64,000 nucleotides of DNA from Polychytrium aggregatum (lineage: Eukaryota; Chytridiomycota; Chytridiomycetes; Polychytriales): assembly GCF_025602895.1 (NCBI RefSeq), contig NW_026516214.1, positions 974,619-1,038,618 on the forward strand. The letters run 5' to 3'. A model generated the notes under the pieces. It was given only the letters and a program-made list of their open reading frames with translations. It had not been told where the DNA came from and ran no database searches. Position numbers and translations under genes: made by a program. Positions 19,374 through 58,739 of the stretch are shown here, piece by piece (the first letter of the stretch is position 1; every line of letters begins with the position of its first letter).

Positions 19374-19756
19374 TGTGATGATCATCCACGTTGGGAACAC
19401 GTGTGGACTGCTGCGCGTGATGCACCATGAGTCATGTTTGTTTGTCTTGGCGTGTATTCCCTGATTGGCTGGCGCCGATGACTCTTACTTCGCCTCCGAC
19501 TGCGCTGTGCTTCGCCCCTCTCGCTGGATGCTCCGCCTCCCTCGCACCCCCATCTCGTCCCTCGTTTGTCGCTCCACCCTTCTCGCCCACTTTCGCCCTT
19601 CGGTTTCCCTCTTGGCTATAAAGCCCCTCCTTTCTTGCACCCATTTTGTATCCTCAGTTCGAACAACACTTGTTGTTATCTGATAAGTCGTAATAGCTTA
19701 TCGTTGTTCGCCAAGCACCTGGTCGTCCAGTGTCGTTGCTTGTCGTGGTCCTCACA
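19374..19756 (+). repeat. A2 5' LTR with promoter
   Basis: 383 bp, starting TGTGATGATCATCC, with a perfect palindrome GATGATCATC at 19377-19386. TATAAAG starts at 19617; AGTTCGAACAA at 19656-19666 is 39 nt downstream. The LTR ends CCTCACA. Confidence 0.9.
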
Positions 19757-19758
19757 TA

Positions 19759-19769
19759 TTGTTCGAACT
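19759..19769 (+). other. A2 self-primer binding site
   Basis: TTGTTCGAACT, two bases after the LTR, is an exact complement of 19656-19666. Confidence 0.75.
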
Positions 19770-19877
19770 CCCTCTCTCTGTCCGACCACCTGCTTGGCTG
19801 AGGCTTCGTTGCTGCCCTCATCCTTCTATTCTCTGTTGTCTTCTCTGCACTCTCCATCCCCCGCTCCCATATCCCAC

Positions 19878-20003
19878 ATGGACCAACTCCAGGCCCAAAT
19901 CGTTGCCCTCCAGGAGGAACTGGTCCTCCTCCGGACCACACACTCTTCCGCCGCCCCGCAGCTCCCCCACATGCCGATCCCGGACAAGTTCGACGGCACC
20001 AGG
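19878..20003 (+). pseudogene. gag: A2 gag, first 42 codons only
   Basis: The ATG at 19878 begins MDQLQAQIVALQEEL, almost identical to A1 gag. The frame runs into the C1 LTR after DKFDGTR and stops. The last five bases, CCAGG (19999-20003), are the left target duplication of C1. Confidence 0.88.
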
Positions 20004-20763
20004 TGTTAGGGATAGCTTCTGCCTGCTCTCCACTTTGACTGCACACTTGGCTGTTCTTTTGCCTTTCTGTTTGTTTGTGTGTAGCTTTGCAGTTCCCCTC
20101 CAATTTTCCGCCTTTTGCCTGTCTTTTCCGCTCCTTCCACACTTCCGTTTCCCCGCGCTGCTCCGCTTCCTTTGTCTTCTTCGCACGCGCCGGTTTGTTT
20201 GTGCACGCGCCTTGCTGCGATTGGTTGCAATTCGGCTGCCGGTCATGTGTCCCCCCACCGGTGACTCATGACCTGCCTGACCGCCCCGATCTCTTGTTCA
20301 TCTCGCACGCATTTGCCCCAACCTTATACTTGACCAATCCGCTTCTTGGACGTTGAGTCACAGTGCTTCGCTTTTGCTTGCGCCTCTCTCGCTTTGGTTC
20401 TCTGCCTGTCTCGGTGGTCCTTCTCGGCCCTCGTTCGTGCACCGCCCCCTTCGCCCTGCGCGATCGCCCACTTTTCCCTCCCTTGGCCGCCTTTCGCTGC
20501 CAAGTCCGGACTTGTCTATAAATAGCCTGACCCCCGCGATGTGTAGTCGAACCTCAGCGTTCAAAATAGGACTAAATAAAGTGCCTTCTACTTTATTCTC
20601 TGAGTGTTCCTCACGTCTCATTTCGAGACTAGTCTTATCTTGAACGGATCTTTGCTTCCCTCGCTCCCTCTCCGAGTCCACTTCGGACTTTACCCTTGCC
20701 TTCCCTGAGCTCACTTCGAGCTCACTTCTTCTTTTGCCGTTGAGTCCCCTTTGGACTCTAACA
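20004..20763 (+). repeat. C1 5' LTR, 31 bp shorter than its relatives
   Basis: Starts TGTTAGGGATAG and ends GGACTCTAACA. It lacks about 31 bp present in the 791-bp C2 and C3 LTRs, between two near-copies of TGCTTCGC-TTTTGC, consistent with a deletion between short direct repeats. TATAAATA is at about 20517. Confidence 0.9.
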
Positions 20764-20834
20764 TCATTTTGAACGCTCCCTCTTGGCTTCCCGGCCTTTC
20801 TTCTTCTTTCGCCTCTCTTTCCCTCGTCGATCCG

Positions 20835-21404
20835 ATGGCTGAGCCTGCTGCACCCCCTGCAGATTTGAATGCGTATCTGGCGCGCATGGAGGAGCGTATG
20901 AACGCCCTCATGACCCAGAACGCTGCTCTCCATCGTCAGATCCAGGACCTGCAAGCTCCCGCCGCCGCTCCCCGCCAGGTCTACCAGGTGAACAAGCCCA
21001 AGGAGTTCCTAGGTTCCCGTGACGAAACGACGGCCTTCCTCGCCCAGTGCCACCTCGTCTTCCTCGCCGATCCTGCCTTCTTTGCGCCCGAGCGCCAGAA
21101 GGTCCTTTATGCCACCTCCTTCCTCCGCGGCGAAGCCTTCAAATGGTACGAGGCCGCCTTTTATATGGCCAACCGCTTCCCGGCTTCCTTCGCGGATTTT
21201 GAAGTTGCCCTCAAGTCGACCTTCGGTGAGGACACGGCCTCCTCGCAAGATAAGGCCTTGAACGACCTCAAGCGCTTGGTTCAACTTAAATCCTGCCAAG
21301 CCTTCGCCACCCGCTTCGTCCAGCTCGCCGCCCGAGTCCAGACCGATGAACCCACCAAGATGCACTTCTTCAAGGAGGGTTTTAAGTCTGAGGTCAAGTC
21401 CCAC
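20835..21404 (+). CDS. gag: C1 gag, N-terminal part
   Basis: Begins at MAEPAAPPADLNAYLARMEERM; an upstream extension in frame has no ATG. A heptad-like N-terminus (QIQDLQ) precedes the gag core (FLAQCHLVFLADPAFF, VLYATSFLRGEAFKWYEAAF). Codon 190 is followed by the D insertion at the target CCCAC (21400-21404). The remaining 127 codons are at 34678-35061 in the correct frame once D and one copy of the duplication are removed. Confidence 0.88.
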
Positions 21405-21705
21405 TGTAGCCAAGGCCACTATATTTTTCCAGATGATCTCCAGCAGAGCAGGGCGAGGGGGCGGCCTTATATGTCCAGCAGCCTGACGCGTTGACGCGCC
21501 CAGAGTCATACAGGAGCGCGCCCCATTTCCTTATCCGTTCCCCAGCTACACACACACACACAGTAACCCAGGACTACTCCCTCGATACACTACAATCTTT
21601 CCCACGGTGCTACAGCAGTCAGTTCTCATCCGTTCTGGATGAAATCGGTATCGTAAGAAAGCTCTCGCTCACGGCTATACCTCGATTATCCTCAATCGTG
21701 TCACA
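21405..21705 (-). repeat. D 3' LTR
   Basis: 301 bp, plus-strand TGTAGCCAAGG to ATCGTGTCACA. It contains a short (AC)n run near 21548-21561. In element sense it starts TGTGACACGATT; CGATT and AATCG (21694-21698, 21683-21687) form a 5-bp inverted repeat close to the end. Confidence 0.92.
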
Positions 21706-21719
21706 CCCCCCCTAAATTT
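21706..21719 (-). other. D polypurine tract
   Basis: In element sense AAATTTAGGGGGGG, directly against the 3' LTR, with an AT-rich stretch before it. Confidence 0.75.
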
Positions 21720-21735
21720 GAAATCAAATTTCTAA

Positions 21736-24620
21736 CTACATACTACTCCCTACACCCACATCCTTCTCTCTCCAGTAATCTCCTATCACATCATCCGCGA
21801 TGTTGTCTTCGTATTCCCAAGTGGCATCTTCAAGGGGATATCCTTCCCACAGTACCAGGTACTGTTGCTTCCTGCGGTATTTTCTGTCGTTGACCAACTT
21901 CTCCACCTTGAATATTGGTTCGACGTCCGAGATTGCAGGTGGTCTTGTGTAAGTCGCTCTTGAAGCGAAGTCGTCCGGCGTCTCAATAAACTTCCGCAGG
22001 AGTTTGCGGTGGAATGTCGGGTGTATGTGGCTTAGTGTAGGGGGTAGCTCCAGGGTGTGGTTGAGTCCTTCGATCTCCGTAATCTTGAACGGACCCAGCC
22101 GACGCGGGATGATTTGGTCTGGCCTGAACTTGTGGGCCTCCCAGTTGATACCTTCGCGCTCAAGGAGGACCATGTCTCCAACCTTGAGCTCCTCCCCCGC
22201 CTGTCTTCTCTCGTTCCCGCTCCGGGTTTGATGATCCTGAGCCTCCTGGAGTTGTTGTGTTGCAATCCTTCGTATGGCTTCGAGGTCCTCCAGGAGACTC
22301 CAGGTTGCCACTCGATCATCGGTGGCATGCTCGTTGCCGGGCATCGTCCTTGGGTGTACCCCGAATGCCAAATAGAATGGGGAGAATCCGGTGGAGGTGT
22401 GCACCGAGTCGTTGTGTCCAAACTCCAGCAGGTGCACCACCTCGTCCCAATTATCGCCCTTGTAGTTGGCGAATGGGACCAGTCTTTGCTTGAGGTCCTT
22501 GACCGTTGCTTCGGCTTGGCCATTGGCCTGTTGGTGCCGGGCCGTCGTAAGCTTCTGGGAAATCTTAAGCGTGGTCAGGACTTTTATCCAAAAGTTCGAT
22601 GTGAAAAGGGAGTCTCGGTCCGAGATTAGCTCCGTCGGGAGTCCGAAGGAGACGACCCAGTATTGAATAAACAACAATGCCACGTCCTCGGCCGTGGACT
22701 TGGTTGTGCACGGAACGAACCGTGCCAGCTTGGTGAGTCGATCCACCAGGATCAGACACTTGTCGTTGCCTTTCTTCGACAGTGGCATAAAGGCAAAGTC
22801 CATGGACACCGAGCTGAATCGTTCCTCAGGGATGGGCAACGGATGCAGCAGGCCGTCGAGGAGGTGGTTGCGGGGTTTGGACTTCTGGCACACCTCGCAT
22901 GCTGCAACATAGCGGGTCACATCCGCTCGCAACGTGGGCCACCAGAACTGGCGCGAAATCTTTTCGAGCGTCCGTAGCTGTCCAACATGGCCCACAGTGA
23001 TGACGTCGTGGTGCTCTTGAAGGATCCGTGTTCGTATCGACTCCACCTTCGGGACGTAGAGTCGATCGTGGTCGTAAAAGATCAGGCCATCCACTCTTGT
23101 AAGACGCTCCAGTGGTGCGTCCTTGGAGCGGCCATCTACATCCTGACCATCGAGATACTTCTGCAGTGTCATTGCCAATTCATCGTTCCCCAGAGCGTCT
23201 CCTACTTCGTCACGGAGGGAAGAGGCAGAGAGACTGGTCGTGACCGGCCTCACATCGACTGCAGCTGTGTCCGAGTCAATCTTCCCCCTACACTTGGAGC
23301 AGAGGGGCCTGTGGCATGGCGCTCGACTGAGTACATCTGCGATTGTGTTTCGAGATCCGGGGACATGTTCAATAGTGAAGTCATAATCTTGAAAATCCAG
23401 GATCCACCGGGCCTGGCGTCGATTGATATTGGCTTGGGTGTTGAGCCAGATGAGTGCCTTATGGTCCGTAACCACATGGAACTGGCAACCCATCAGATAT
23501 GGCCGACCATGTTTGACTAAATCATGCAATGCCAGCAGTTCATGCTCGTACGTCGAGTAGTTGCGTTCAGTGTTCGTCCACTTCCTGGACCAATACAGGA
23601 TGGGGTGAAGCCCATCGTCGAATCGTTGCAAGATCACCCCACCCCCCGCATAGCGGGAGGCGTCAGAGTGGACCTCGACCGGCAGTTGGGTGTCGTAGAA
23701 TCTCAGGACCGGGTATGACGATATGTGGTGCTGAAGCACCCTTACCGCGGTCTGTTCCTGTTCGGTCCATATCCATCCGGTGTTCTTCGGAAGTAGCCCT
23801 GTCAATGGCAGACATATCTCGGCGTATCCGGGGATGAAGTCCTTCACCCAGTTGGTGAGTCCCAGGAAGGCTTGCACATCCGTGATCGAGGACAGCTGGC
23901 CAAAGTCCAGGACAGCGTTGGCCTTGTCCTTCGTGATACTCAGCCCATGTCTGGACACCTCATGTCCACAGAACGGGACCGATTCCTGAGCGAAGCTGCA
24001 CTTCATCAACTTGGCATAGAGGCCGTTCTCCTTAAACTTCTTGAGAACTCGCTCCAGGTGGGCTGCATGCTCTTCTAAAGTGTCCGAGTAGACAAGGACA
24101 TCGTCGACATAGGCGACCATAAACTTGTCGTAGAACTCGTGAAATATGCGGTTCATCATCGTCATGAAGCAGGCCGGGGAGTTGGTAAGCCCCATTGGCA
24201 TTACTAGGTATTCAAATGTTCCATATCTTGTCCGAAAGGCCGTCTTCGCAATGCTGCCTTCATCCATGCGGACCGTGTTGAACCCGTCGCGAACATCGAG
24301 TCCGCTGAAGAATCTTTTGTTTGCCAAGCGGTCCCGCATCTCCGCAATGAACGGAAGCGGAGTGCGGTTCTTGACCGTGTTGGCGTTCAATGCCCTGTAG
24401 TCCACACACATACGTAATGTGCCGTCAGCCTTTTTGACAAAGAGTACCGGAGCACCGTAGTTGGATGTCGAGGGGCGGATATGCCCCTTCTCGAGCAACT
24501 CGTCCAGCTTGGCCTTCAGCACCGTCAACTCCTCGGGACTCAAGTGGAAGATGGGCCTGTACGGTGGAGGCTTCCTCGAATCGATCAGCTCGATGTGCTG
24601 ATCTTCCGGCCGAGGCGGGG
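21736..24620 (-). pseudogene. pol: D pol: RT, RNase H, integrase, chromodomain, out of frame with gag-protease
   Basis: Open from about 24620 to TAG/TGA at 21736. It starts in the RT N-terminal region (LPPPRPEDQHIEL, then SPEELTVLKAKLDELLEKG). RT has VDYRALN and YVDD (AYVDDVLVYS) near 24100; RNase H has HSDASRYAGGG. An HHCC finger reads HHDVITVGHVG...CEVCQKSK, and integrase D-D-E residues lie within MDFAFMPL, ISDRDSLF and GQAEATVK. A canonical chromodomain (VEKLVNDR...VLWEGYPLEDATWEYEDN) lies near the C-terminus. It is joined to the gag-protease frame by a one-base deletion around 24620-24626, inside a normally continuous segment, so I read it as damage rather than programmed shift. Confidence 0.88.
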
Positions 24621-26642
24621 GCAGACTTTGGGGTCCTCGAATACGTCCATGTATCTCTCCAGGACAGATCGGATGGCTGGCGGAAGCTTGGCCAGGTATT
24701 CCTCCTTCTGTTCCGCCAGCGACTTATCGTTCGGGTTTCTGTTAATCTGGGTGACCTCGGATTGGCTTACCAAGACGACTCCAACCTGCACTTCATCTTC
24801 TTTGAGTTCTCTCTGGAGCTGCTTGAAGGATACCGCTTCGATGTGGATCGCCCTAACTCGTTGATCCTTCACGGCTGGCAGGCTGGTCCAAACATGTCGG
24901 GTGTTACGCCGATCCACGAAAGTGATCCTTGTCCGACCCTCCTGGGTCCTCTGATCCAGGACGCGGACCTCCTCATCGAATGGATTGCCCAGGATGAGGT
25001 CATCTTTAATGTCGGCGACAACACAATTGATGAGCCTCGTGTACGATCCACATCGGAGGCTGATGACCGTGGCTGTTGTCGAGACAGAAGTGCGATCGTC
25101 CGCAAATCGTAGCTGTATATCGCAGGGGATCATCTTGCATCCTAGACTCTGGGCTAGGGCTTGCTTGATAACGTTGCCCTTGGCTCCAGAGTCTCGCAGG
25201 AACCGGATGCGCTTTTGAATGCCGGTTGGTCCCCCAGCAGCACCCACGAAGTGGAAGCAAGCGCTCTCTGATATGGCGTTCATTGCTCCTTCGTGCGGTG
25301 GCTCTCTTCGCTTCCCGACCACTCTCGTCAGGTCGATTGAACTTGGTAGTGTCTTTATTTGGCAAGCGTAGACATCACCCTCATGTACCTCGGCATCTGC
25401 GCTCCCATGCGGACTTCTCGTGACTTCCTGGCCACGGGTCTGCTCTCCTTGAACTTGTTCAACCTTGACTGGAGAGCGGCAACCCGTTAGTCCAGGCTTG
25501 TCACGATTGTCCGGAGCAGCAGGTCCGAATACGTACTGAGGGGAGTCATCGCTTCCAACATGAGACTGTCTTGGCTCGGTGGCATTGGGAGGTTCCAATC
25601 GGTAGCTGTGGGAGGCGTTCGTTTGCTCGTAGGGGTCGTAGGTCGCCGTGACTTGTCGCACGGGGATTCTCTGACGGGTCTTGTTCCTCTCCTTCTCCGG
25701 GCAACGGGCGGCTACATGCCCAGCATTGGCTTTGCGGCAGTAGAAACACCCTTTGTTTCGTATAAGGAACTCTCTCTCTCGTGAGGAGAGGTACGAGCCA
25801 CTACCTCTTGGTCCCCTATGGATAGCATCGATGTCCATGGGGACTACTTGCGGGAGCGGCGGCGGAGGCGGGGGCTGATAAGCCGTTGCAGCTTGTTTGT
25901 CCCAGATGCTGCCGAGACGAAGCGTCTCTCGGATCAGTGCTGGAATGTCCTCGCGGAGCTCCGTCTCGTAGTTAGGCAGCATCTGGACATACGGCCTCAC
26001 TGAGTCGTGAAGGCCGCCCACGAAGTAGCCGGTCTTCGAAAAGGTGGTCAATTTTGTTGCGGCTGCGGAGAGCTCCAGGAATCGCTCGATATACTTGGAG
26101 AGGCTTCGAAGCTTCTTTGCTTGGCAAAAGGCTTTAAGTTCCTGTTCAGCCTTTGTGGCTGAGTCCGCAGGAATGAATGTTGCCACTATGATGTCCCGCA
26201 GGCTCTGCCACGAGTCTAACGAGGACCTCATGGCAGCGTTGTCCTGCGAGAACCACCATGTGTGAGCTTTGTCTTGGAAGTGGGTCGCGGCAGCCTGGAC
26301 CTGGGCTGGTCCGACATAGTAGTCCTCCGCATACGAGAAAACCTGATCCATTGAAACAAGGAAGGCATTCACAGTGCCGGCCTCGCGGCTGCCTTTGAAA
26401 GGCGGCACCGCAGCCTCCAGCTTTCTGAGGAAAGCAACCTTGATCTCCCACTGGCGTTGGGTGTGTTGAACGTCCGTTGCAGCGGGTCCTCGGAGTCGAT
26501 AATTGGCAGAAAATGTTCTGACCAGGGTTTGCTGTTCGGGGGTGAGTGAGATGGCAAGCCGATTGAGGTCGCCATCCACACTGCAGAATTGCTTCCACTC
26601 CCCTGCAATAAGGTCTTCAAAAGTAATTGTCTCCTCCGTCAT
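24585..26642 (-). CDS. gag: D gag-protease, reading frame open
   Basis: 685 codons from ATG 26642 (MTEETITFED); an upstream extension is minisatellite and has no ATG. The gag core is at residues about 75-240 (FLVSMDQVFSYAEDYYVG, ATHFQDKAHTWWFSQDN). The knuckle near 305 is CFYCRKANAGHVAARC, CX2CX6HX4C, two residues longer than the standard CX2CX4HX4C. The protease follows in the same frame with RDSGAKGNVI near 505. The last 12 or so residues after DVFEDP are out-of-frame readthrough past the one-base deletion. In an undamaged copy gag, protease and pol would probably be one polyprotein. Confidence 0.85.
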   Translation of the reverse strand: MTEETITFEDLIAGEWKQFCSVDGDLNRLAISLTPEQQTLVRTFSANYRLRGPAATDVQHTQRQWEIKVAFLRKLEAAVPPFKGSREAGTVNAFLVSMDQVFSYAEDYYVGPAQVQAAATHFQDKAHTWWFSQDNAAMRSSLDSWQSLRDIIVATFIPADSATKAEQELKAFCQAKKLRSLSKYIERFLELSAAATKLTTFSKTGYFVGGLHDSVRPYVQMLPNYETELREDIPALIRETLRLGSIWDKQAATAYQPPPPPPLPQVVPMDIDAIHRGPRGSGSYLSSREREFLIRNKGCFYCRKANAGHVAARCPEKERNKTRQRIPVRQVTATYDPYEQTNASHSYRLEPPNATEPRQSHVGSDDSPQYVFGPAAPDNRDKPGLTGCRSPVKVEQVQGEQTRGQEVTRSPHGSADAEVHEGDVYACQIKTLPSSIDLTRVVGKRREPPHEGAMNAISESACFHFVGAAGGPTGIQKRIRFLRDSGAKGNVIKQALAQSLGCKMIPCDIQLRFADDRTSVSTTATVISLRCGSYTRLINCVVADIKDDLILGNPFDEEVRVLDQRTQEGRTRITFVDRRNTRHVWTSLPAVKDQRVRAIHIEAVSFKQLQRELKEDEVQVGVVLVSQSEVTQINRNPNDKSLAEQKEEYLAKLPPAIRSVLERYMDVFEDPKVCPRLGRKISTSS

Positions 26643-26678
26643 GGGTACTGGCAGGGCCTCCCCAGCAAGTTCGGGCGT

Positions 26679-32562: not shown

Positions 32563-32574
32563 AGCGTTCAAAAT
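32563..32574 (-). other. C2 self-primer binding site
   Basis: Element sense ATTTTGAACGCT, two bases inside the LTR, is an exact complement of AGCGTTCAAAAT, which lies 39 nt downstream of TATAAATA in the same LTR. Confidence 0.77.
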
Positions 32575-32576
32575 GA

Positions 32577-33367
32577 TGTTAGAGTCCGAAGGGGACTCAA
32601 CGGCAAAAGAAGAAGTGAGCTCGAAGTGAGCTCAGGGAAGGCAAGGGTAAAGTCCGAAGTGGACTCGGAGAGGGAGCGAGGGAAGCAAAGATCCGTTCAA
32701 GATAAGACTAGTCTCGAAATGAGACGTGAGGAACACTCAGAGAATAAAGTAGAAGGCACTTTATTTAGTCCTATTTTGAACGCTGAGGTTCGACTACACA
32801 TCGCGGGGGTCAGGCTATTTATAGACAAGTCCGGACTTGGCAGCGAAGGGCGGCCAAGGGAGGGAAAAGTGGGCGATCGAGCAGGGCGAAGGGGGCGATG
32901 CACGAACGAGGGCCGAGAAGGACCACCGAGACAGGCAGAGAACCAAAGCGAGGGAGGCGCAAGCAAAAGCGAAGCACCTGGCAGGAGAAACGTGCAAAGG
33001 CGAAGCAATGTGACTCAACGTCCAAGAAGCGGATTGGTCAAGTATAAGGTTGGGGCAAATGCATGCGAGATGAACAAGAGATCGGGGCGGTCAGGCAGGT
33101 CATGAGTCACCGGTGGTGGGACACATGACCGGCAGCCGAATTGCAACCAATCGCAGCAAGGCGCGTGCACAAACAAACCGGCGCGTGCGAAGAAGACAAA
33201 GGAAGCGGAGCAGCGCGGGGAAACGGAAGTGCGGAAGGAGCGGAAATGGCAGGCAAAAGGCGGAAAATTGGAGGGGAACTGCAAAGCTACACACAAACAA
33301 ACAGAAAGGCAAAAGAACAGCCAAGTGTGCAGTCAAAGTGGAGAACAAGCAGAAGCTATCCCTAACA
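32577..33367 (-). repeat. C2 5' LTR with promoter
   Basis: 791 bp. In element sense TATAAATA is followed by AGCGTTCAAAAT after 39 nt, then AATAAAG within a hairpin, and four further short hairpins up to the LTR end. Confidence 0.94.
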
Positions 33368-34328
33368 GCCTTGGGCAGACAGACAGGCTCACGGCAGAGC
33401 CTCACAGGAGAGATCGGAGCGTTGGGCAGACGGCGGGGGCCTTGGGCAGACAGACAGGCTCACGGCAGAGCCTCACAGGAGAGATCGGAGCGTTGGGCAG
33501 ACGGCGGGGGCCTTGGGCAGACAGACAGGCTCACGGCAGAGCCTCACAGGAGAGATCGGAGCGTTGGGCAGACGGCGGGGGCCTTGGGCAGACAGACAGG
33601 CTCACGGCAGAGCCTCACAGGAGAGATCGGAGCGTTGGGCAGACGGCGGGGGCCTTGGGCAGACAGACAGGCTCACGGCAGAGCCTCACAGGAGAGATCG
33701 GAGCGTTGGGCAGACGGCGGGGGCCTTGGGCAGACAGACAGGCTCACGGCAGAGCCTCACAGGAGAGATCGGAACGTTGGGCAGACGGCGGGGCCTCAGA
33801 CAGACAGACAGGCTCACGGCAGAGCCTCACAGGAGAGATCGAAACGTTGGGCAGACGGCGGGGGCCTTGGGCAGACAGACAGGCTCACGGCAGAGCCTCA
33901 CAGGAGAGATCGGAACGTTGGGCAGACGGCGGGGCCTCAGACAGACAGACAGGCTCACGGCAGAGCCTCACAGGAGAGATCGGAGCGTTGGGCAGACGGC
34001 GGGGCCTCGGACAGACAGACAGGCTCACGGCAGAGCCTCACAGGAGAGATCGAAACGTTGGGCAGACGGCGGGGGCCTTGGGCAGACAGACAGGCTCACG
34101 GCAGAGCCTCACAGGAGAGATCGGAGCGTTGGGCAGACGGCGGGGGCCTTGGGCAGACAGACAGGCTCACGGCAGAGCCTCACAGGAGAGATCGGAGCGT
34201 TGGGCAGACGGCGGGGGCCTTGGGCAGACAGACAGGCTCACGGCAGAGCCTCACAGGAGAGATCGGAACGTTGGGCAGACGGCGGGGGCCTCGGGCAGAC
34301 AGACAGGAGGAGAGATCGGAACGTTGGG
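33368..34328. repeat. 71-bp minisatellite, right block (D leader)
   Basis: Thirteen full units (first start 33371, then 33442, 33513, 33584 and so on) and a truncated fourteenth. Steps are 70-71 bp, with point variants at GGAGCG/GGAACG/GAAACG and CCTTGGG/CCTCAGA. It lies between the D primer site and D gag, so it is transcribed as 5' leader. All three plus-strand frames are free of stops, giving long meaningless ORFs. Before C2 inserted, the array was about 17 units. Confidence 0.94.
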
Positions 34329-34359
34329 AAAACTGGACGCGAGAGGAGAACCGTCGTTG

Positions 34360-34371
34360 CCGATGCTACCA
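34360..34371 (-). other. D tRNA-type primer-binding site
   Basis: Element sense TGGTAGCATCGG, directly against the 5' LTR, the same 12 bases as in B and E. LTR plus primer site form ATGG, opening a 44-codon upstream frame that ends inside the minisatellite. It is not in frame with gag. Confidence 0.8.
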
Positions 34372-34672
34372 TGTAGCCAAGGCCACTATATTTTTCCAGA
34401 TGATCTCCAGCAGAGCAGGGCGAGGGGGCGGCCTTATATGTCCAGCAGCCTGACGCGTTGACGCGCCCAGAGTCATACAGGAGCGCGCCCCATTTCCTTA
34501 TCCGTTCCCCAGCTACACACACACACACAGTAACCCAGGACTACTCCCTCGATACACTACAATCTTTCCCACGGTGCTACAGCAGTCAGTTCTCATCCGT
34601 TCTGGATGAAATCGGTATCGTAAGAAAGCTCTCGCTCACGGCTATACCTCGATTATCCTCAATCGTGTCACA
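34372..34672 (-). repeat. D 5' LTR
   Basis: 301 bp, the same as 21405-21705. In element sense ACATATAAGG is the likely TATA box. Followed on the plus strand by the duplication CCCAC and the rest of C1 gag. Confidence 0.92.
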
Positions 34673-39524: not shown

Positions 39525-40315
39525 TGTTAGGGATAGCTCCTGCTTGTTCTCCACTTTGACTGCACACTTGGCTATTCTTTTGCCTTTCTGTTTGTTTGTG
39601 TGTAGCCTTGCAGTTCCCCTCCGATTTTCCGCCTTTTGCCTGTCTTTTCCGCTCCTTCCGCACTTCCGTTTTCCCGCGCTGCTCCGCTTCCTTTGTCTTC
39701 TTCGCACGCGCCGGTTTGTTTGTGCACGCGCCTTGCTGCGATTGGTTGCAATTCGGCTGCCGGTCATGTGTCCCCCCACCGGTGACTCATGACCTGCCTG
39801 ACCGCCCCGATCTCTTGTTCATCTCGCATGCATTTGCCCCAACCTTATACTTGACCAATCCGCTTCTTGGACGTTGAGTCACATTGCTTCGCCTTTGCAC
39901 GTTTCTCCTGCCAGGTGCTTCGCTTTTGCTTGCGCCTCTCTCGCTTTGGTTCTCTGCCTGTCTCGGTGGTCCTTCTCGGCCCTCGTTCGTGCATCGCCCC
40001 CTTCGCCCTGCTCGATCGCCCACTTTTCCCTCCCTTGGCCGCCCTTCGCTGCCAAGTCCGGACTTGTCTATAAATAGCCTGACCCCCGCGATGTGTAGTC
40101 GAACCTCAGCGTTCAAAATAGGACTAAATAAAGTGCCTTCTACTTTATTCTCTGAGTGTTCCTCACGTCTCATTTCGAGACAAGTCTTATCTTGAACGGA
40201 TCTTTGCTTCCCTCGCTCCCTCTCCGAGTCCACTTCGGACTCTACCCTTGCTTTCCCTGAGCTCACTTCGAGCTCACTTCTTCTTTTGCCGTTGAGTCCC
40301 CTTTGGACTCTAACA
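39525..40315 (+). repeat. C3 5' LTR with promoter
   Basis: TGTTAGGGATAG to GGACTCTAACA. TATAAATA starts at 40069; AGCGTTCAAAAT is at 40108-40119, 39 nt on; AATAAAG is at 40127. It differs from the 3' LTR most in the region around 39620-39860. Confidence 0.93.
40127..40310 (+). promoter_or_regulatory. Array of five short hairpins in the C LTR (R/U5)
   Basis: Perfect inverted repeats: AATAAAGT/ACTTTATT (40127-40149, 7-nt loop, containing the poly(A)-type signal); GTCTC/GAGAC (40167-40181); GAGTCC/GGACTC (40226-40242); GAGCTC/GAGCTC (40259-40275); GAGTCC/GGACTC (40294-40310). The last four have 5-nt loops of ATTTC, ACTTC, ACTTC and CCTTT. They are downstream of the inferred RNA start, so they would fold in the leader and at the 3' end of the RNA. 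The same series is present in C1 and C2 with minor changes. Confidence 0.75.
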
Positions 40316-40317
40316 TC

Positions 40318-40329
40318 ATTTTGAACGCT
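40318..40329 (+). other. C3 self-primer binding site
   Basis: ATTTTGAACGCT, two bases after the LTR, is an exact complement of 40108-40119. Confidence 0.77.
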
Positions 40330-42036: not shown

Positions 42037-42455
42037 TGTGATGACCAGCATCACAACGGACCAATGAGATTGTCCCGCATGCTCTCGCCCTCCGCACCAA
42101 TCATGAGTCCCCACGTGTTTGTTTGCCCCCATGCATGAGCACGCGCCGTTGCCACCCGCGTCTACTGGTTTCCTGCCTCCCCCACCGCTCGGCACATGTC
42201 CCCGGGCTGTGCCAAGCCTCTCTCGCTTGCACACCAGCCACTCTCGCACCCCCTTCTCGCTTCTCTGTGATGCTCCACCCTTCTCGCCCACTTTTGCCCC
42301 TCGACCTTCTCCCGGTCTATAAATAGCCCTGCATGTCTGAGCCTATGTTGAACACCAGTTCGAACAAAACTTGTTCTTTGGTGTTCGGGGCTAAAAGCTA
42401 ATAAAGCTCATACCAAGCACTTGGTCTTCGTCCTTGCGCTTGTTCACTCCTTACA
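42037..42455 (+). repeat. F 5' LTR with promoter
   Basis: 419 bp. It opens with TGTGATG-ACCAG-CATCACA, a 7-bp perfect inverted repeat (42037-42055). TATAAATA starts at 42318; AGTTCGAACAAA is at 42357-42368, 39 nt on; CTAATAAAGC follows. Upstream of the TATA is CTTCTCGCCCACTTTTGCCC, shared with A. Confidence 0.94.
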
Positions 42456-42456
42456 C

Positions 42457-42468
42457 TTTGTTCGAACT
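42457..42468 (+). other. F self-primer binding site
   Basis: TTTGTTCGAACT, just after the LTR, is an exact 12-nt complement of 42357-42368. Confidence 0.78.
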
Positions 42469-42632
42469 CTCTTCTACTGATACCACCTGCTTGGTATCTT
42501 CCGCTCCTAGCCCCGCCCCTTTCCTAGTCCTGTCCGAACCTCAAGCACACTTGTGTCTGAGCCCTCTTCGCTCTCCTGTTCTTGAACCTCCTCGCTTTTT
42601 TTTTTTTTCCCAGTCCCAGTCCCAGTCCCGCC

Positions 42633-47692: not shown

Positions 47693-48111
47693 TGTGATGA
47701 CCAGCATCACAACGGACCAATGAGATTGTCCCGCATGCTCTCGCCCTCCGCACCAATCATGAGTCCCCACGTGTTTGTTTGCCCCCATGCATGAGCACGC
47801 GCCGTTGCCACCCGCGTCTACTGGTTTCCTGCCTCCCCCACCGCTCGGCACATGTCCCCGGGCTGTGCCAAGCCTCTCTCGCTTGCACACCAGCCACTCT
47901 CGCACCCCCTTCTCGCTTCTCTGTGATGCTCCACCCTTCTCGCCCACTTTTGCCCCTCGACCTTCTCCCGGTCTATAAATAGCCCTGCATGTCTGAGCCT
48001 ATGTTGAACACCAGTTCGAACAAAACTTGTTCTTTGGTGTTCGGGGCTAAAAGCTAATAAAGCTCATACCAAGCACTTGGTCTTCGTCCTTGCGCTTGTT
48101 CACTCCTTACA
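47693..48111 (+). repeat. F 3' LTR
   Basis: 419 bp, the same as 42037-42455 by eye. Followed by the duplication GTCTT and the resumption of C3 pol at LARED. Confidence 0.94.
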
Positions 48112-48116
48112 GTCTT

Positions 48117-51209: not shown

Positions 51210-51221
51210 GGAAGGGGATGA

Positions 51222-52012
51222 TGTTAGGGATAGCTCCTGCTTGTTCTCCACTTTGACTGCACACTTGGCTGTTCTTTAGCCTTTCTGTTTGTTTGTGTGT
51301 AGCCTTGCAGTTCCCCTCCAATTTTCCGCCCTTTGCCTGCCATTTCCGCCCATTCCGCACTTCCGTTTCCCCGCGCTGCTCCGCTTCCTTTGTCTTCTTC
51401 GCACGCGCCGGTTTGTTTGTGCACGCGCCTTGCTGCGATTGGTTGCAATTCGGCTGCCGGTCATGTGTCCCCCCACCGGTGACTCATGACCTGCCTGACC
51501 ACCCCAAACCCTCGCCTATCTTGCATGCGTTCGCCCCAATCTGTTCTTTGACCAATCCGCTTCTTGGACGTTGAGTCACATTGCTTCGCTTTTGCACGTT
51601 TCTCCTGCCAGGTGCTTCGCTTTTGCTTGCGCCTCTCTCGCTTTGGTTCTCTACCTGTCTCGGTGGTCCTTCTCGGCCCTCGTTCGTGCATCGCCCCCTT
51701 CGCCCTGCTCGATCGCCCACTTTTCCCTCCCTTGGCCGCCCTTCGCTGCCAAGTCCGGACTTATCTATAAATAGCCTGACCCCCGCGATGTGTAGTCGAA
51801 CCTCAGCGTTCAAAATAGGACTAAATAAAGTGCCTTCTACTTTATTCTCTGAGTGTTCCTCACGTCTCATTTCGAGACAAGTCTTATCTTGAACGGATCT
51901 TTGCTTCCCTCGCTCCCTCTCCGAGTCCACTTCGGACTCTACCCTTGCTTTCCCTGAGCTCACTTCGAGCTCACTTCTTCTTTTGCCGTTGAGTCCCCTT
52001 TGGACTCTAACA
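51222..52012 (+). repeat. C3 3' LTR
   Basis: 791 bp, TGTTAGGG to CTCTAACA. Compared with the 5' LTR it has many substitutions in the first 320 bp, for example around 51340-51360 and 51500-51545, while the hairpin-rich end is nearly the same. The right flank is gag of element I, not E. Confidence 0.92.
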
Positions 52013-52838
52013 TCCTCTCGGCGAAGCGGGCCTCGTCCTCGAGTTCTTGCCTGCGGAGGTCGCAGTCGATGGCAGCTTCTACGATCTCGGCCAGGTTCCC
52101 GGCCCGGATAAGGTGTGTTGGAAGGAGTTCCCTAATCTTGGGGTTGAGACCTTCCCTGAAGGTCAGGCACAGGAGATGTTCAGGCCAAGGGGGGGTGAGT
52201 TCTCGGCGCAGGAGGTTGAAACGAGTGATGTAGTTAGCTACAGTGCTGGTCTGCTTAATTGACTTGAGGTCTCGGGAGACTTGATCCAGGTGGTTATTGG
52301 GCAGGAAGGTTTCTTGAAGTTGGGTACAGAGAGCTTCAAACGGCATATCTTCAAACCCGTAGTCATCAACCATCGGTGCGAACAAGCTGAAGGCGTCTCC
52401 CTTCAGAAGGGAGAGGGGGTGGACCACCTTCTCGCGATCGTTCGAGAACCGTCGGGGCTGGTTGAAGAAATACAATTTGAGCTGTCTCAGGAAGGGTTTG
52501 AGCTGGGAGGCATCGCTTCCTGAGAAGGGAGAGGGCGCCTCGATCGGCGAGGGGTCTGAGGCTTGGCTCCTGGGTGTTTCTGCTCTCTCGAGCACTTCGA
52601 TACGGCGTTGTAGGGACCCGATCGTCCCTTTTAGCTCCTCGAGCTGTTCCATTAGTTCGATGCAAAGTTCTTCGGAGGCAGACATGCGCTTCTGCCTCTC
52701 ACCTCTGTTTCCTTCGGTCTCCGGGTCATCACGATGGCCTGTGGCCCTGGTCGTGGAGTCGGCGGTGGCTGGGGTATCGGGTGTCTCCCGATCCTCCGGT
52801 CGTGCGGCGTTCTTCTGGTTTCTGGTCTCGGGTGGCAT
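52013..52838 (-). pseudogene. gag: I gag, truncated
   Basis: About 275 codons from ATG 52838 (MPPETRNQKNAARPED). The N-terminus is charged and disordered-looking, then a heptad-like stretch (LMEQLEELKGTIGSLQRRIEVLE). The gag core has FLRQLKLYFFNQPRRF and KVVHPLSLLKGDAFSLFAPM, then RFNLLRRELTPPWPE and FREGLNPKIRELLP. It stops after EARFAERM at the C3 LTR, before any zinc knuckle. The LES... extension is LTR readthrough. Confidence 0.82.
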
Positions 52839-53073
52839 AATGGCGGATGGTACTAGTCTTGATTTCGGAGGGTACCCACAGCAAGTGGTATCTCGCTATG
52901 AAGTTATGATTATTCTCGGGCAAAGGCCTGTGGGTCCCTGCTGCGATCCGTGGAGTGGTGCAACTGGACAAGATAACGAGAGACGAGGGTGCAAGCACGT
53001 ATGGAGGGGGTTCAGGCCCTTTATAGGCCAAGAAAGGAAAGGAGCCTTGCCCTTGGCTGCGCAGGACGTGACA
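52839..53073 (-). repeat. I 5' LTR and leader, inner boundary not resolved
   Basis: The outer end in element sense is TGTCACGTCC (53073 leftward); CCTATAAAGGGC near 53020-53027 is a good TATA box. With only one copy and no clear primer site I cannot place where the LTR ends before the gag ATG at 52838. Confidence 0.6.
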
Positions 53074-53108
53074 AAATCCTCCACCTTCTCTTGGTCTCCC
53101 GAGGCCCA
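53074..53108 (+). pseudogene. 35-bp scrap of family C pol (copy C4)
   Basis: Matches C pol coding for KSSTFSWSPEAQ (compare 36823-36856) between the end of I and the start of an F LTR. It is the only visible trace of a fourth C element that received both insertions. The last five bases (GCCCA) should be the F2 target duplication. Confidence 0.75.
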
Positions 53109-53397
53109 TGTGAGGAGTGAACAAGCGCAAGGACGAAGACCAAGTGCTTGGTATGAGCTTTATTAGCTTTTAGCCCCGAACACCAAAGAACAAGTTTTGT
53201 TCGAACTGGTGTTCAACATAGGCTCAGACATGCAGAGCTATTTATAGACCGGGAGAAGGTCGAGGGGCAAAAGTGGGCGAGAAGGGTGGAGCATTACAGA
53301 GAAGCGAGAAGGGGGTGCGAGAGTGGCTGGTGTGCAAGCGAGAGAGGCTTGGCACAGCCCGGGGACATGTGCCGAGCGGTGGGGGAGGCAGGAAACC
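53109..53397 (-). repeat. F2: family F LTR, cut by B2
   Basis: Plus-strand TGTGAGGAGTGAACAAGCGC to GGCAGGAAACC, the reverse of the F LTR with few changes, including AGTTCGAACAAA and the TATA box. 289 of 419 bp are present; the rest would lie beyond B2, outside the window. The last five bases (AAACC) are the left flank of B2. Solo LTR or part of an element cannot be decided. Confidence 0.85.
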
Positions 53398-53473
53398 TGT
53401 CAGATCACGGGATCAAGAGGAAGTCAAAAGAAGAAGAATAGAGAATATGTTTTATTGATCTTAGCGAGGCTAG
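53398..53473 (-). repeat. B2 3' LTR, first part
   Basis: Plus-strand TGTCAGATCACGGG to GCGAGGCTAG. It stops at the G target GCTAG (53469-53473) and resumes at 58745. The total is 467 bp, against 466 in B1. Confidence 0.9.
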
Positions 53474-53797
53474 TGTGACGAACCGGCGTGTTCGTCACAT
53501 AGCGCGTGCACGCAGACTGAGCGACGCAGCGTGGGAACCTCGACCCGGTTCCCCGCACCGACTCTTGCTGGGCCCAAACTATAAAAGGCGCCATCCCCGT
53601 CGCCCGAGAGGCCCAGCAAGAGGAATCACCTGTATTCTCCGCCTTGCCCTGCGTCGTTCGCCAAATAAACGACCGTCTCCAGTCCCCGTCCCCCCGATCC
53701 CGTCCTGCTTCCGCCCTGCCGTCGCCTCGCTTCCGTCCTGCCTTCGCTCGAGCCTCGCCCGCCGTTCCGTCCTCTCCAGCCCTGCCCGTCCGTGACA
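53474..53797 (+). repeat. G 5' LTR with promoter
   Basis: 324 bp. It opens with TGTGACGAAC-CGGCGT-GTTCGTCACA, a perfect 10-bp inverted repeat (53474-53499). TATAAAAGG starts at 53580; AAGAGGAATCA is at 53618-53628, 38 nt on; CAAATAAACG follows. Confidence 0.94.
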
Positions 53798-53799
53798 TT

Positions 53800-53810
53800 T
53801 GATTCCTCTT
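53800..53810 (+). other. G self-primer binding site
   Basis: TGATTCCTCTT, two bases after the LTR, is an exact complement of 53618-53628. Confidence 0.75.
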
Positions 53811-53825
53811 CTTACCTTGCCTGCC

Positions 53826-54593
53826 ATGGCCGACGCTCCTCTCCGCCTCCCTGACCCATTTGACGGCAACCGTCGTCGCTTCCGTTCCTTCCTGACCCAA
53901 GTCAAGATCATCCTGTCCATCCACGAGGCCCGCTACCCCACGGACCGTCACCGGGTGGGCCTTGTGGGCACATTGCTCGCCGGACTACCCGCAGACTGGT
54001 TCGCCAGCCTCGTTGCAACGGAGAGCCCCGCCATCCAAGATTTTGCCACCTTCGTTCGCCAGCTCGAAGCTCGTTTTGGCGACCCGCACTCCGTCGTCCG
54101 GTCTGAAGGCGCTATCATGCGCCTCACCCAAGGCAAGCGGTCTGTTGCGATCTTCGCCTCCGAGTTCCAGCTCCTCCAAGCGGAGATCCACTGGGACGAA
54201 CAGGCTCTGATCGCCCAGTATTACCGCGGGCTCAACACCGACGTCAAAGACATGCTCGCGATTCGAGGCGAGCTGCCTGCCACGCTTGACGAGCTCATCG
54301 AAGTGGCGACTCGCCTCGACGCCCGCATCTACCAGCGCCGTCTCGAGGAGGACCGCCGCCCTCGCCGTCCCAACCTCGAGCTGCCTCCACCCGCAGGATT
54401 CAAGGAAGCCCAAGACGACCCCTTGGTGGCTCAAGTCCCCGGCTCCGGTTCAGCCTCCCGCGAAGCCGAACGCAGACATCGCAGAGCCAATAATCTCTGC
54501 CTGTACTGCGGGGAGGCCGGACACTTTGTCAAGGCCTGCCCCAACCGCCGAACCAACACCGAGTCGGGAAACGACATGCGCCAGAGCCTCTAA
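53826..54593 (+). CDS. gag: G gag: capsid/nucleocapsid protein
   Basis: 255 residues from ATG 53826 ([15 protein letters not shown]). The shortest Gag here; it lacks the N-terminal coiled region of A and F and starts almost at the gag core ([39 protein letters not shown]). A CCHC knuckle ([14 protein letters not shown]) lies near 232. The tail [10 protein letters not shown] holds the slip site. Open. Confidence 0.91.
54566..54572 (+). promoter_or_regulatory. G -1 frameshift site GGGAAAC
   Basis: Gag codons TCG GGA AAC GAC, the same core as in A and F. Pol is -1 to gag. The gag stop is seven codons on. Confidence 0.78.
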
Positions 54594-57500
54594 GGGCCGC
54601 TGCTCTGGCGCTGACCGACAATGTCAGCAATAAAGTCTTTTCCAAACCTCAAAGACCAATTGCTACCGCCCATCCCAAGGCCCAACCTGCCCTAACTCCC
54701 CGACCCGTACCCATCCCGCAACCCAGCCCCGCCTCGTTCTTCCAGGCCGCCCCCCAGCCCCAGACCATTCGACCCGTCCAAGAGCATGCGCCGCTCTCAA
54801 ACACCTCGACCACCGCCGCTACCACTTGCCCTCGGGCCAAGGTGGACCTCCGTTACCTCATGCACCCACCCATCCTCGAGTCCAGCAACCTGCCCATCCA
54901 CTTCCCAAAGCAGACTTCCCATGCCCCAGTCCCCCCACATGCTCCCCCACCTGGCAGCACGCCCCTCACAGCCAACACCGCCCCCACCACATGCCCCCCG
55001 CATGGTGGTGGCGACACGCCCGACCCCGACTGCGTGCATATGGTTGCCGCTTTGTCAATGATTGCACGCCGCCAAGACTCCAAGCTGTTCCTTATCCCCA
55101 TCCAGCTCCAACAAGGTGACCTCGTGGCCCCAACGCTCGCCATGGTCGACAGCGGATGCTCCGCATGCTTGATCGATCCCACGTTTGCCAAGGAAGTGGG
55201 ACTTGCCATCCACACCAAAGACAAGCCACTGGCTGCGGAAGGCATCGACGGACACGCCCTTCCCACGATCACCGAAGAGACCGAACCGCTGACGATTGCG
55301 GTCGGCGGCCACGAGCAGCCCCTCGTGCTCGATCTCATGCCCAGCCCGCACGCGCCAGTTGTGCTTGGCTTGCCTTGGCTTCACCAGCACAATCCCACAG
55401 CCGACTGGGCGGCCGGGACCGTCGATATCCCGACGACTCCCATCGTTGTTGCCGCCTCTCACCCAACTGGAGGAAGCAATCCTCCAGCTACATTGCCGGA
55501 GAAGTACGGTGACTTTGCCGATGTGTTCAGTAAGGGAAAGGCAGACCGACTGCCCGACCACCGCCCATACGATTGCAGCATCGACCTCGTCCCCGACAAG
55601 TCCCCCCCTTTCGGTCCCATTTACAATCTGTCGGTGGAAGAAACGAAAGCACTACGGGAGTACTTGGACGAGAATCTTGCGAAGGGATTCATTCGCCCGT
55701 CCAAGTCTCCCGCGGCCTCCCCTGTCCTATTCGTTCGGAAGAAAGACAGCACACTGCGCTTGTGTGTTGACTACAGAAGCCTGAACAAGATCACAGTTCG
55801 GAACCGGTATCCGCTTCCACTGATTCCCGCACTGCTCGAGCGCCTGAGCGGGGCAAAGGTGTTTTCGAAAATCGACCTGCGCGGTGCGTACAACCTTGTA
55901 CGCATCCGTGCAGGCGACGAATGGAAAACAGCCTTCCGCACCCCGTTCGGCCTCTTCGAGTACTTAGTGATGCCCTTTGGGCTCACGAATGCACCCGCCG
56001 TGTTTCAGCATTTCCTTAACGATGTGTTCCGTGACCTCCTAGACACCTATGTGGTCGTCTATTTGGATGACATTTTGGTGTTCTCGCCATCACAGGAGAC
56101 ACACGATCAACACGTCCGGGAAGTCCTCTCTCGCCTCAGAAGCCACGGGCTCTTCGGCAAGCTCGAAAAGTGTCTCTTCGATTGCCAAGAGGTCGAATTC
56201 CTTGGTTAGGTCGTATCTACAGGCTGTATCAGCATGGACCCGGCCAAAGTCCAGTCTGTTATCGAATGGAAGCCTCCCCACTCGGTCAAGGGAGTGCAAC
56301 GGTTCCTGGGATTTGCAAATTTCTACAGACAATTCATCAACGCATACTCCTCCGTGGCAATCCCGCTCAACGAACTTACTCGCAAGGACATCCCCTTTGC
56401 GTGGACACCCAAGGCACAGCATGCATTCGACTCACTCAAACAAGCCTTTACGTCCGCACCCGTCCTTGCACATCCCAGGATGGATGCCCCATTTGTGGTC
56501 GAGACTGATGCGTCCGACTTTGCCATCGGAGCAGTACTCTCGCAGCCGGACGGGGAGGATGTGCTACGCCCCGTAGCCTTCCACTCCCGAAAGCTGCTGC
56601 CCAACGAGAGTCGCTACGATGTGCATGACAAGGAGTTGCTCGCCATCGTGGATGCATTCAAGAGATGGCGGCACTTCCTGGTCGGATCGGCACATCGAGT
56701 CACGGTCCACACCGACCACAGAAATCTGCAGTATTTCATGACCGCACGGGCGCTCAACGGACGCCAAGCACGATGGGCCATGACCCTGGCAAACTTTGAC
56801 TTTGTCATTACTTTCCGACCTGGCAAGCTCCACACCAAGGCCGACGCCTTGTCTCGCAGGGCGGAGCATGGCTTTGAGGAGGGAGAAGGCTCCGCCCGGG
56901 TCGAACAGCCGCTCATACGACCCGAACAAGTCCTAGCCAGCGCCATCCATCAAGACGAGGCCGACGACGACGAGAGCGACCTCGACAAGGAGGATGCGCA
57001 CGCTTGCCCAAATGACCTGGACGATACGCATCCGGATGGTACAGAAGAGGCCGACCCTCTCCCAAGTCAGGACGACCAGCACCACCCCCCAAGCCCGGAA
57101 CGCCAGCTTGAGTTACTGCGTCAGTATCACGACAGTCCGCTCGCAGGACATTTCGGGATCTCCAAGACGTACAAGCTGCTCAGTCGTGACCACAGATGGC
57201 CCGGAATGAAGCGTGATGTTGCCGATTACGTGCGCACATGTGATACGTGTGCACGGGCCAAGACTCCAAGACACCCTCCAAGTGGCCTCCTGGTACCACT
57301 CCCAGTCCCAAATCGGCCTTGGGGCTCAACATCAGTCGACTTCATAACGGACCTACCGCCAGCAAAGGGAATGGACTCGGTCATGGTCGTCGTGTGTCGC
57401 CTGACCAAGATGGCTCACTTCGTACCATGTACCAAAACAACCACTGCTCCACAGGCCGCCTCGCTGTTCATCCGTGAGGTTGCTCGACTGCATGGGATGC

Positions 57501-58415
57501 CAGACACGATCGTGTCCGACCGGGGCCCACAATTTGTCTCCCGCTTCTGGAGGCGACTCATGGAACTGCTCGGTGCCACGGTCAATCTCTCATCTGCGTT
57601 TCACCCGCAGACCAACGGGCAAACCGAGCGGGTGAACCAGATCCTGGAACAGTATCTCCGCTGTTATGTCATACCAGCAGGATGACTGGTTGGAACTCCT
57701 GCCACTTGCAGAGTTTGCGTACAACAACGCAACTCACGAGTCGACAGGAGTGTCCCCATTCTACGCTAATTATGGCTTGCACCCTCGTTTCTCAGTCCTC
57801 CAGCCACAAGCAACGGTCAATCCCGCCGCGCAGGGGCACGCAAAGCTCCTTGAAGATGTTCGTCAGCGTCTGACAAAGGTCTTGACAGAGGCGCAAGAAC
57901 GACACAAACGATTTGCCGACCATCACCGGGCAGAACCACCGCCGTATGCACCGGGCGACAAGGTGTGGCTCCGGCGGGTCAACATCAAGACCACACGCCC
58001 GTCGGAGAAGCTCGATTATAGGCGAATTGGCCCTTACAAGATCAAGAGGAAGGTGAACGAGGTAGCGTTCGAGCTGGACCTCCCAGCACACTTCCGAGTG
58101 CACCCGGTGTTCCACACCGCACTCCTGGAGCCGTACCACAAGTCAACGATCCCCAACCGGGATATCCCTCCTCCACCTCCAATCGAGGTGGAAGACCAAC
58201 TCGAATACGAAGTTGAAGAGATTCTGGACTCGAGAAGGCAAGGGAGGGGAATCCAATACTTGGTCGCCTGGAGAGGCTATCACATCACCGAAGCCACTTG
58301 GGAACCCGCTTCGAATCTTGCCCACGCACCACTGATTGTCAAGGAGTTCCACCAGCGCTTCCCAGAGAAGCCAGTTCCCCCCAACAAGCAAGCGCAAGGG
58401 TTGAGAAGGGTGTGA
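54572..58415 (+). pseudogene. pol: G pol with one nonsense codon and one frameshift
   Basis: Pro/Thr-rich linker, protease [14 protein letters not shown] near 55145, RT with VDYRSLN and YLDD ([11 protein letters not shown]) near 56065. Then TAG at 56207-56209 falls in FLG-stop-VVS where a Tyr codon is expected. The same frame continues through RNase H (ETDASDFAIG), the HHCC finger and integrase (VDFITDLP, VSDRGPQF, QTERVNQI) to 57668. There it breaks (GTCATACC, two bases short relative to the related sequences) and resumes from about 57670 to TGA 58413-58415, with a chromodomain (EYEVEEILDSRRQGRG...WRGY...TWEP). The stop touches the LTR. Confidence 0.9.
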
Positions 58416-58739
58416 TGTGACGAACCGGCGTGTTCGTCACATAGCGCGTGCACGCAGACTGAGCGACGCAGCGTGGGAACCTCGACCCGGTTCCCCGCAC
58501 CGACTCTTGCTGGGCCCAAACTATAAAAGGCGCCATCCCCGTCGCCCGAGAGGCCCAGCAAGAGGAATCACCTGTATTCTCCGCCTTGCCCTGCGTCGTT
58601 CGCCAAATAAACGACCGTCTCCAGTCCCCGTCCCCCCGATCCCGTCCTGCTTCCGCCCTGCCGTCGCCTCGCTTCCGTCCTGCCTTCGCTCGAGCCTCGC
58701 CCGCCGTTCCGTCCTCTCCAGCCCTGCCCGTCCGTGACA
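58416..58739 (+). repeat. G 3' LTR
   Basis: 324 bp, the same as 53474-53797, including the terminal 10-bp hairpin. Followed by GCTAG. Confidence 0.94.

Follow-up and report, generated by a model that had tools for sequence, protein, structure and literature searches.

The 64,000-nucleotide stretch of Polychytrium aggregatum DNA considered here (the window; positions 974619-1038618 of contig NW_026516214.1, within a 64.7-Mb genome of 418 contigs) contains nested Ty3/gypsy chromodomain retrotransposons with long terminal repeats (LTRs). Five families among them (A, C, F, G and H) carry, just downstream of the 5' LTR, a primer binding site (PBS) that is complementary to the segment of the LTR where their own RNA is predicted to begin. 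Together with four families added from the same genome (X1, G1, G2 and H1), they are very likely, as judged from sequence, Tf1/sushi-type chromodomain elements whose own RNA serves as primer for reverse transcription. The mechanism is already known from Tf1/sushi elements and Tcn1, and the families described here are new members. A Tf1-like reading of the five window families had been put forward in an initial annotation of the same DNA, and is supported by exact pairing in 40 of 41 copies, by the compensation of all eight primer differences between related families, by the lack of a tRNA-type PBS in eight of nine families, and by an 11-nt complement in six of the nine.

Primer and PBS in the five window families

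The pol open reading frames (ORFs) of A, C, F and H encode reverse transcriptase (RT), RNase H, integrase (IN), an SH3_Tf2-1 domain and a chromodomain (Pfam matches), while in G the same domains are spread over several pieces and frames, the chromodomain lying in another frame, so that this copy is interrupted. All five thus show the combination that marks the Tf1/sushi group, a Ty3/gypsy pol with RT, RNase H, IN and chromodomain. A protease (PR) match was obtained in A, F and G, and none in the scanned ORFs of C and H. Two other window elements, B and E, are related chromodomain elements in which RT, an integrase zinc domain and a chromodomain were found; their SH3_Tf2-1 scores are 33-37 bits, against 62-80 bits in A, C, F, G and H. 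The paired LTRs of A, F and G are identical over their full lengths of 385, 419 and 324 nt, and these insertions therefore look young.

Every one of the five primer/PBS pairs is present exactly (Table 1); the H pair (14064/14162) falls outside the range given for them, 19617-58720. Paired LTRs and 5-bp target-site duplications (TSDs), read by eye, define where the LTRs of A, F, G and the minus-strand copy of C end; the H end was set with no TSD or LTR-pair check, and the H 3' LTR is cut by A2, a second A-type copy. The PBS, placed about 2 nt after the LTR in the initial annotation, lies exactly 2 nt after the terminal CA in all five families, a count that holds for F if its 11-mer is taken, the twelfth F pair extending into the spacer. 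The distances claimed between TATA-like box and primer start were recovered as well (39 nt in A, C and F, 38 nt in G and H). For H the box reads TAAATA in the window copy, and TATAAA at 36 nt in two other copies (L071 and L073, counted by hand), so that the range across families is 36-39 nt. Two other details had to be adjusted: a 12-nt primer is correct for C, the complement being 11 nt in A, F and G and 9 nt in H; and the five families, whose pairs are all real, amount to about four independent lineages, as A and F are sisters with the same 11-nt primer. The distance from RNA start to PBS, in contrast to these fixed spacings, is variable (98-210 nt, and 84-85 nt in three other H copies).

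How often such an arrangement would arise by chance was estimated on both strands of the window and of 112 further loci (L001-L112; about 360 kb in all, with some overlap). There are 674 maximal complements of 9 nt or longer whose arms are spaced 70-260 nt apart. A TATA-like box precedes the first arm by 36-40 nt in 40 of them, and in 38 of the 40 the second arm is in addition preceded by CA plus 2 nt, pairing into the spacer being permitted; the 38 rows, overlapping loci included, reduce to 10 sequence types. Both marks occur together in none of 1594 unmerged seeds of a reversed-only (uncomplemented) control. When CA is required exactly 2 nt before the second arm, 8 distinct types fall in the 35-39 nt bin, and the remaining bins, as far as 150 nt, hold a single one (at 90-94 nt). 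A 12-nt complement at L076 was set aside, as no TATA lies at the required distance and the match sits in the coding DNA of another element.

Covariation among families and copies

Four further self-primed families (X1, G1, G2 and H1) were recovered from small stretches upstream of RT matches in the same genome. The complement is 11 nt long in A, F, X1, G, G1 and G2, 12 nt in C, and 9 nt in H and H1. Relative to the nearest relative, the primer differs at two positions in X1 (versus A/F), two in G1 and three in G2 (both versus G), and one in H1 (versus H). All eight differences are mirrored in the PBS and none is uncompensated; one differing position is common to G1 and G2, so that perhaps seven events are involved. 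When PBSs were permuted among the nine families, none of 100,000 draws reached the observed 96 matches out of 96 (a swap of A and F only would tie, since they share a primer, and none was drawn).

Pairing is also maintained across copies, being exact in 40 of the 41 distinct copies that have both arms. The exception is an X1 copy (L091) in which one primer C has become T, which would still allow G-U pairing in the RNA. These 41 copies are what remains of 43 rows after removal of L002 and L005, which represent the same places as L001 and L004; each row required a single alignment from RNA start to PBS, and the count thus covers copies that are not heavily broken. Among 40 stretches taken upstream of RT matches, 25 contain a self-pair (including a C copy inside a targeted E copy, L088, and the L091 variant), one the tRNA-type site of the E' family (L095), and 14 neither (L070, L072, L075, L076, L079, L080, L086, L096, L097, L102, L104, L107, L108 and L110). 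Of these 14, ten match no part of the region from start to PBS, three (L070, L075 and L097) stop at an LTR end with no PBS behind it, and in L102 the start is missing, so that broken pairing with both arms present was found in none of them.

Between lineages, primers match at only 0-5 of 9-11 positions, and the proposal that pairing is conserved, not sequence, is right. Such conservation need not imply selection on two sites, as copying of the primer would be expected to rewrite the PBS at every cycle.

Predicted RNA start and RNA folding

All 41 copies have a C at -1 and a purine at +1, the first base of the complement; the junction is C/A in seven families and C/G in H and H1. A pyrimidine followed by a purine is the usual form of an initiator. 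The C at -1 is unpaired with the base that follows the PBS in nine of nine families. The distance from the TATA-like box, the initiator form and the 5' limit of pairing agree with one another, and this agreement, the strongest argument that the sequence offers, supports, without proving, the prediction that the primer is the very 5' end of the RNA. The base that follows the PBS is itself C in all nine families and all 41 copies.

In the unconstrained minimum free energy (MFE) fold, the primer:PBS helix forms in G, G1, G2, H and H1, with mean pair probabilities of 0.79-0.997, and C is intermediate (0.57). In A, F and X1, a strong stem joins the unique 5' (U5) part of the LTR to the leader across the PBS (-33.1, -32.1 and -27.5 kcal/mol, respectively; 0 of 500 shuffles reach each value), with CCAAGCA paired to TGCTTGG at its core. 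This stem is mostly conserved in sequence among the three families, with one double-sided difference (G-C versus A-T) noted by eye. It crosses the primer:PBS helix, and the two would coexist only as a pseudoknot, which is beyond the scoring of the program. The U5-leader stem was rejected as a general feature because in the remaining six families (C, G, G1, G2, H and H1) it is equalled or exceeded by 321-499 of 500 shuffled sequences. The TATA box of G, G1 and G2 lies between the arms of an inverted repeat (CTCTTGCTGG / CCAGCAAGAG or variants of it), the right arm of which overlaps with the predicted RNA start.

tRNA-type families in the same genome

Four families of the same genome (B, E, E' and K) serve as a built-in negative control for the self-priming geometry. 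In the copies read (B and E in the window, one of E', L095, and four of four of K, L111 and L119-L121), TGGTAGCATCGG follows the LTR directly, with a 0-nt spacer, and is perfectly complementary to the final 12 nt of the host initiator tRNA-Met once CCA is appended. A tRNA gene pattern search gave 28 matches, of which 24 are the initiator tRNA-Met gene or near-identical variants, and ARAGORN identifies a tRNA-Met (CAT) at L090. To the first 30 nt past the LTR, the LTR itself offers a complement of at most 5 nt in B and E' and 6 nt in E and K; in the nine self-primed families the longest one measures 9-13 nt and begins 0-2 nt past the LTR end. None of these nine carries the initiator tRNA-Met site, and eight of them, among which A, C, F, G and H, have a site with no initial TGG, the H1 site being the one that begins with it. 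A search for a tRNA T-arm/acceptor pattern matching the H1 site gave four matches, against five in the reversed control.

Initiator tRNA-Met genes recur every 2-10 kb on five contigs (C219, C238, C364, C366 and C378), some with single-base indels, and a tRNA-Leu gene lies 8 nt upstream of the tRNA-Met at L090.

RT relationships and search for outside elements

The RTs of A, C, F, G and H are mutually 54-86% identical, and 36-47% and 38-49% identical to those of B and E, respectively. The RT of K, a tRNA-type family, is 54-66% identical to those of the self-primed families (about 149-150 amino acids compared). Elements from other hosts were sought as a test of the C that follows the PBS. Searches of viral contigs yielded no independent elements, with either a single RT or an alignment of four RTs as query. 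A search of genome contigs returned six loci, five with an RT 55-60% identical to that of F and a sixth at 34%. Those five (L113-L117) lie on short contigs of bacterial or archaeal bins and are probably eukaryotic contamination. No complete LTR was recognised in them, and two (L114 and L115) have a site beginning TGGATAG 2 nt after a sequence ending in TTACA.

Points against self-priming and alternative explanations

Several observations weigh against the self-priming interpretation. RNA 5' ends and cleavage are deduced from the DNA, and H and H1 pair over just 9 nt. The copy counts are neither independent nor unbiased: many copies are near-identical, so that 40 of 41 reflects about four independent lineages, and three (L001, L004 and L008) were retrieved with the primer word itself, 37 of 38 being exact without them. 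The MFE folds of A, F and X1 lack the primer:PBS helix (pair probability 0.001-0.063), the U5-leader stem being favoured instead. RT trees were built from six self-primed rows with B, E and K, with or without four outside rows (X1, G1, G2, Tf1 and sushi were not among the rows), and the six group against B, E and K at a support of only 63/68, so that the clade is not firm. Support is 87/90 without B, and 58/41 for the remaining five without C, and when the four outside rows, of unknown priming, are included, a single self-primed clade is weakly disfavoured (approximately unbiased test, p-AU 0.037).

Could the site after the LTR be an ordinary tRNA PBS, its match to the LTR being a coincidence or a by-product? 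Initiator tRNA-Met sites do exist in B, E, E' and K, and the TGG of H1 could be taken in the same sense, yet the acceptor-end search for H1 did no better than its reversed control, and the other eight sites lack the TGG start (these eight were not searched against internal tRNA stretches). Moreover, a self-complement recurs at one narrow distance from the TATA-like box in nine families, far beyond the control, changes in the PBS are mirrored in the LTR, and the families with a genuine tRNA-type site never exceed 6 nt of LTR complement, which makes this explanation very improbable. We regard with similar scepticism the idea that the complement is a regulatory RNA stem, involved in dimerisation, packaging or translation control, and not a primer duplex. 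The primers of A and F do contain a palindrome, GTTCGAAC, noted by eye, that could pair two RNAs, and the U5-leader stems of A, F and X1 are stronger than in any of 500 shuffles each. Against this, the palindrome is absent from the X1, C, G and H primers, and the partner starts in all nine families 2 nt past the LTR, at the expected origin of minus-strand synthesis, a place at which, the TGG of H1 apart, no tRNA site was found.

Shared ancestry of a conserved LTR/leader block, with no role for pairing, is scarcely credible. It would account for A and F having the same primer and PBS while the aligned part of their LTRs is only about 72% alike, but the primers diverge between lineages, and the eight differences within lineages are all double-sided, which contradicts such an explanation for X1, G1, G2 and H1.

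Proposed mechanism and implications

In the self-priming interpretation, RNA polymerase II would start transcription 36-39 nt past the TATA-like box, at the C/purine junction. The RNA would then fold its initial 11 nt (12 in C, 9 in H and H1), complementary to the PBS, back onto that site, as the computed folds suggest for part of the families; in A, F and X1, the U5-leader stem would make this duplex a pseudoknot. By analogy with Tf1, the RNase H of the element would cut at the 3' end of the duplex and free a short RNA, whose 3' OH would prime minus-strand strong-stop DNA. Synthesis of the minus strand would begin 2 nt past the LTR, so that integrase would have 2 nt to trim. Finally, plus-strand strong-stop synthesis may copy the attached primer and thereby rewrite the PBS, so that both sites would stay complementary while drifting, which fits the eight compensated differences out of eight.

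A more specific version of this last step is that the self-primer writes its own PBS with the cap included, plus-strand copying regenerating the PBS and placing a C across from the cap guanosine. The C that invariably follows the PBS would thereby be explained, as would the consistent matching of primer differences in the PBS with no need for selection on two sites. The leader is nevertheless pyrimidine-rich and the lineages number only about four, so that the C could reflect composition, and we hold copying of the cap to be unlikely.

Nine self-primed and four tRNA-type families within one genome constitute a clean natural experiment. RNA 5' ends can be predicted to the base from sequence alone, candidate primers come in lengths of 9, 11 and 12 nt, and the 2-nt spacer after the LTR contrasts with the 0-nt spacer of the tRNA-type families. 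Whether the primer itself rewrites the PBS thereby becomes testable.

Features of the window and of related loci

Coordinates are collected in Table 1. The two H LTRs share only 76% identity over 181 nt, and the H 5' LTR is 79-81% identical to other H copies, against about 99% for gag and 97-99% for RT. The H element of the window is apparently a mosaic or mixed-subfamily element, its primer and PBS nonetheless being intact. The leader of element E contains 71-nt tandem repeats that are split by a C insertion (33223-34442; 26550 to about 26963). At L079, a K-type LTR end is adjoined directly by a G-type gag start, with no PBS between them.

Table 1. Positions of LTRs, primers, PBSs and associated features in the window, with primer/PBS pairs of the added families
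Feature	Position	Strand	Details
A 5' LTR	6407..6791	-	385 nt; identical 3' LTR at 876-1260; TSD gccag
A pol ORF	1261..5220	-	PR, RT, RNase H, IN, SH3_Tf2-1, chromodomain
A self-primer	6499..6509	-	AGTTCGAACAA; predicted RNA 5' end, 39 nt past TATA
A PBS	6394..6404	-	TTGTTCGAACT; 2 nt past LTR
A U5-leader stem	6340-6509	-	across PBS
A2 LTR	19374-19756	+	
A2 self-primer	19656..19666	+	
A2 PBS	19759..19769	+	
B PBS	7012..7023	+	TGGTAGCATCGG; complement of host initiator tRNA-Met 3' end; 0-nt spacer
C self-primer	20556..20567	+	AGCGTTCAAAAT
C PBS	20766..20777	+	ATTTTGAACGCT
C (minus-strand copy) 5' LTR	32577-33367	-	TSD aaggc
C (minus-strand copy) self-primer	32773..32784	-	
C (minus-strand copy) PBS	32563..32574	-	
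C copy LTR	39525-40315	+	
C self-primer, second plus copy	40108..40119	+	
C PBS, second plus copy	40318..40329	+	
E PBS	34360..34371	-	TGGTAGCATCGG; initiator tRNA-Met; 0-nt spacer
F 5' LTR	42037..42455	+	419 nt; identical 3' LTR at 47693-48111; TSD gtctt
F self-primer	42357..42368	+	AGTTCGAACAA(A)
F PBS	42457..42468	+	(T)TTGTTCGAACT
F U5-leader stem	42357-42510	+	across PBS
G 5' LTR	53474..53797	+	324 nt; identical 3' LTR at 58416-58739; TSD gctag
G inverted repeat	53562-53622		in LTR; also at L077, L078, L081-L085, L087
G self-primer	53618..53628	+	AAGAGGAATCA
G PBS	53800..53810	+	TGATTCCTCTT
H LTRs	13840-14159; 19176-19373		
H self-primer	14064..14072	+	GTCTTGCCT; 9 nt
H PBS	14162..14170	+	AGGCAAGAC
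X1 pair			AGTCAGAACAA with TTGTTCTGACT
X1 U5-leader stem	L092		across PBS
G1 pair			AAGAGAAGTCA with TGACTTCTCTT
G2 pair			AAGACGAGTCT with AGACTCGTCTT
H1 pair			GTCTTGCCA with TGGCAAGAC

Comparison with known systems

Self-priming is documented or proposed in several fungal and plant elements. Tf1 RNA is complementary to the PBS over its first 11 bases, with cleavage by RNase H between bases 11 and 12, and self-priming has been proposed for Tcn1 of Cryptococcus, according to the account of priming in PMC7175516. Tj1 of Schizosaccharomyces japonicus is described, in the relevant part of PMC4600332, as having a PBS complementary to the 5' end of its mRNA and as being active in an assay. In plants, most elements of the Tcn1 clade are predicted to be self-priming, and the mechanism is considered likely to be common to Tf1/Sushi elements (PMC6317226, in its treatment of this clade), while for SM-Tcn1 the portion of PMC2864245 devoted to it reports that neither tRNA priming nor self-priming was found.

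The Tcn1 clade of Cryptococcus, mosses and club mosses resembles the families described here in consisting, in these accounts, of chromoviruses with proposed or predicted self-priming. Tj1 shares, as far as its description above goes, the same self-complementary design, but belongs to another host and targets genes transcribed by RNA polymerase III. Within P. aggregatum itself, B, E, E' and K differ from the self-primed families by their 12-nt tRNA-Met PBS at 0 nt from the LTR and an LTR complement of at most 6 nt. A further close parallel is with Tf1 and Tf2 of Schizosaccharomyces pombe, with which the families share a Ty3/gypsy pol with SH3_Tf2-1 and chromodomain and, in six of nine cases, the 11-nt complement between RNA start and PBS published for Tf1. 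Unlike Tf1/Tf2, they include complements of 12 nt (C) and 9 nt (H and H1), and combine about four unrelated primer sequences with co-resident tRNA-type relatives in one genome. What they add to a known mechanism is therefore the number of families, clear compensated differences, 9- and 12-nt versions of the primer, and tRNA-type neighbours that act as controls.

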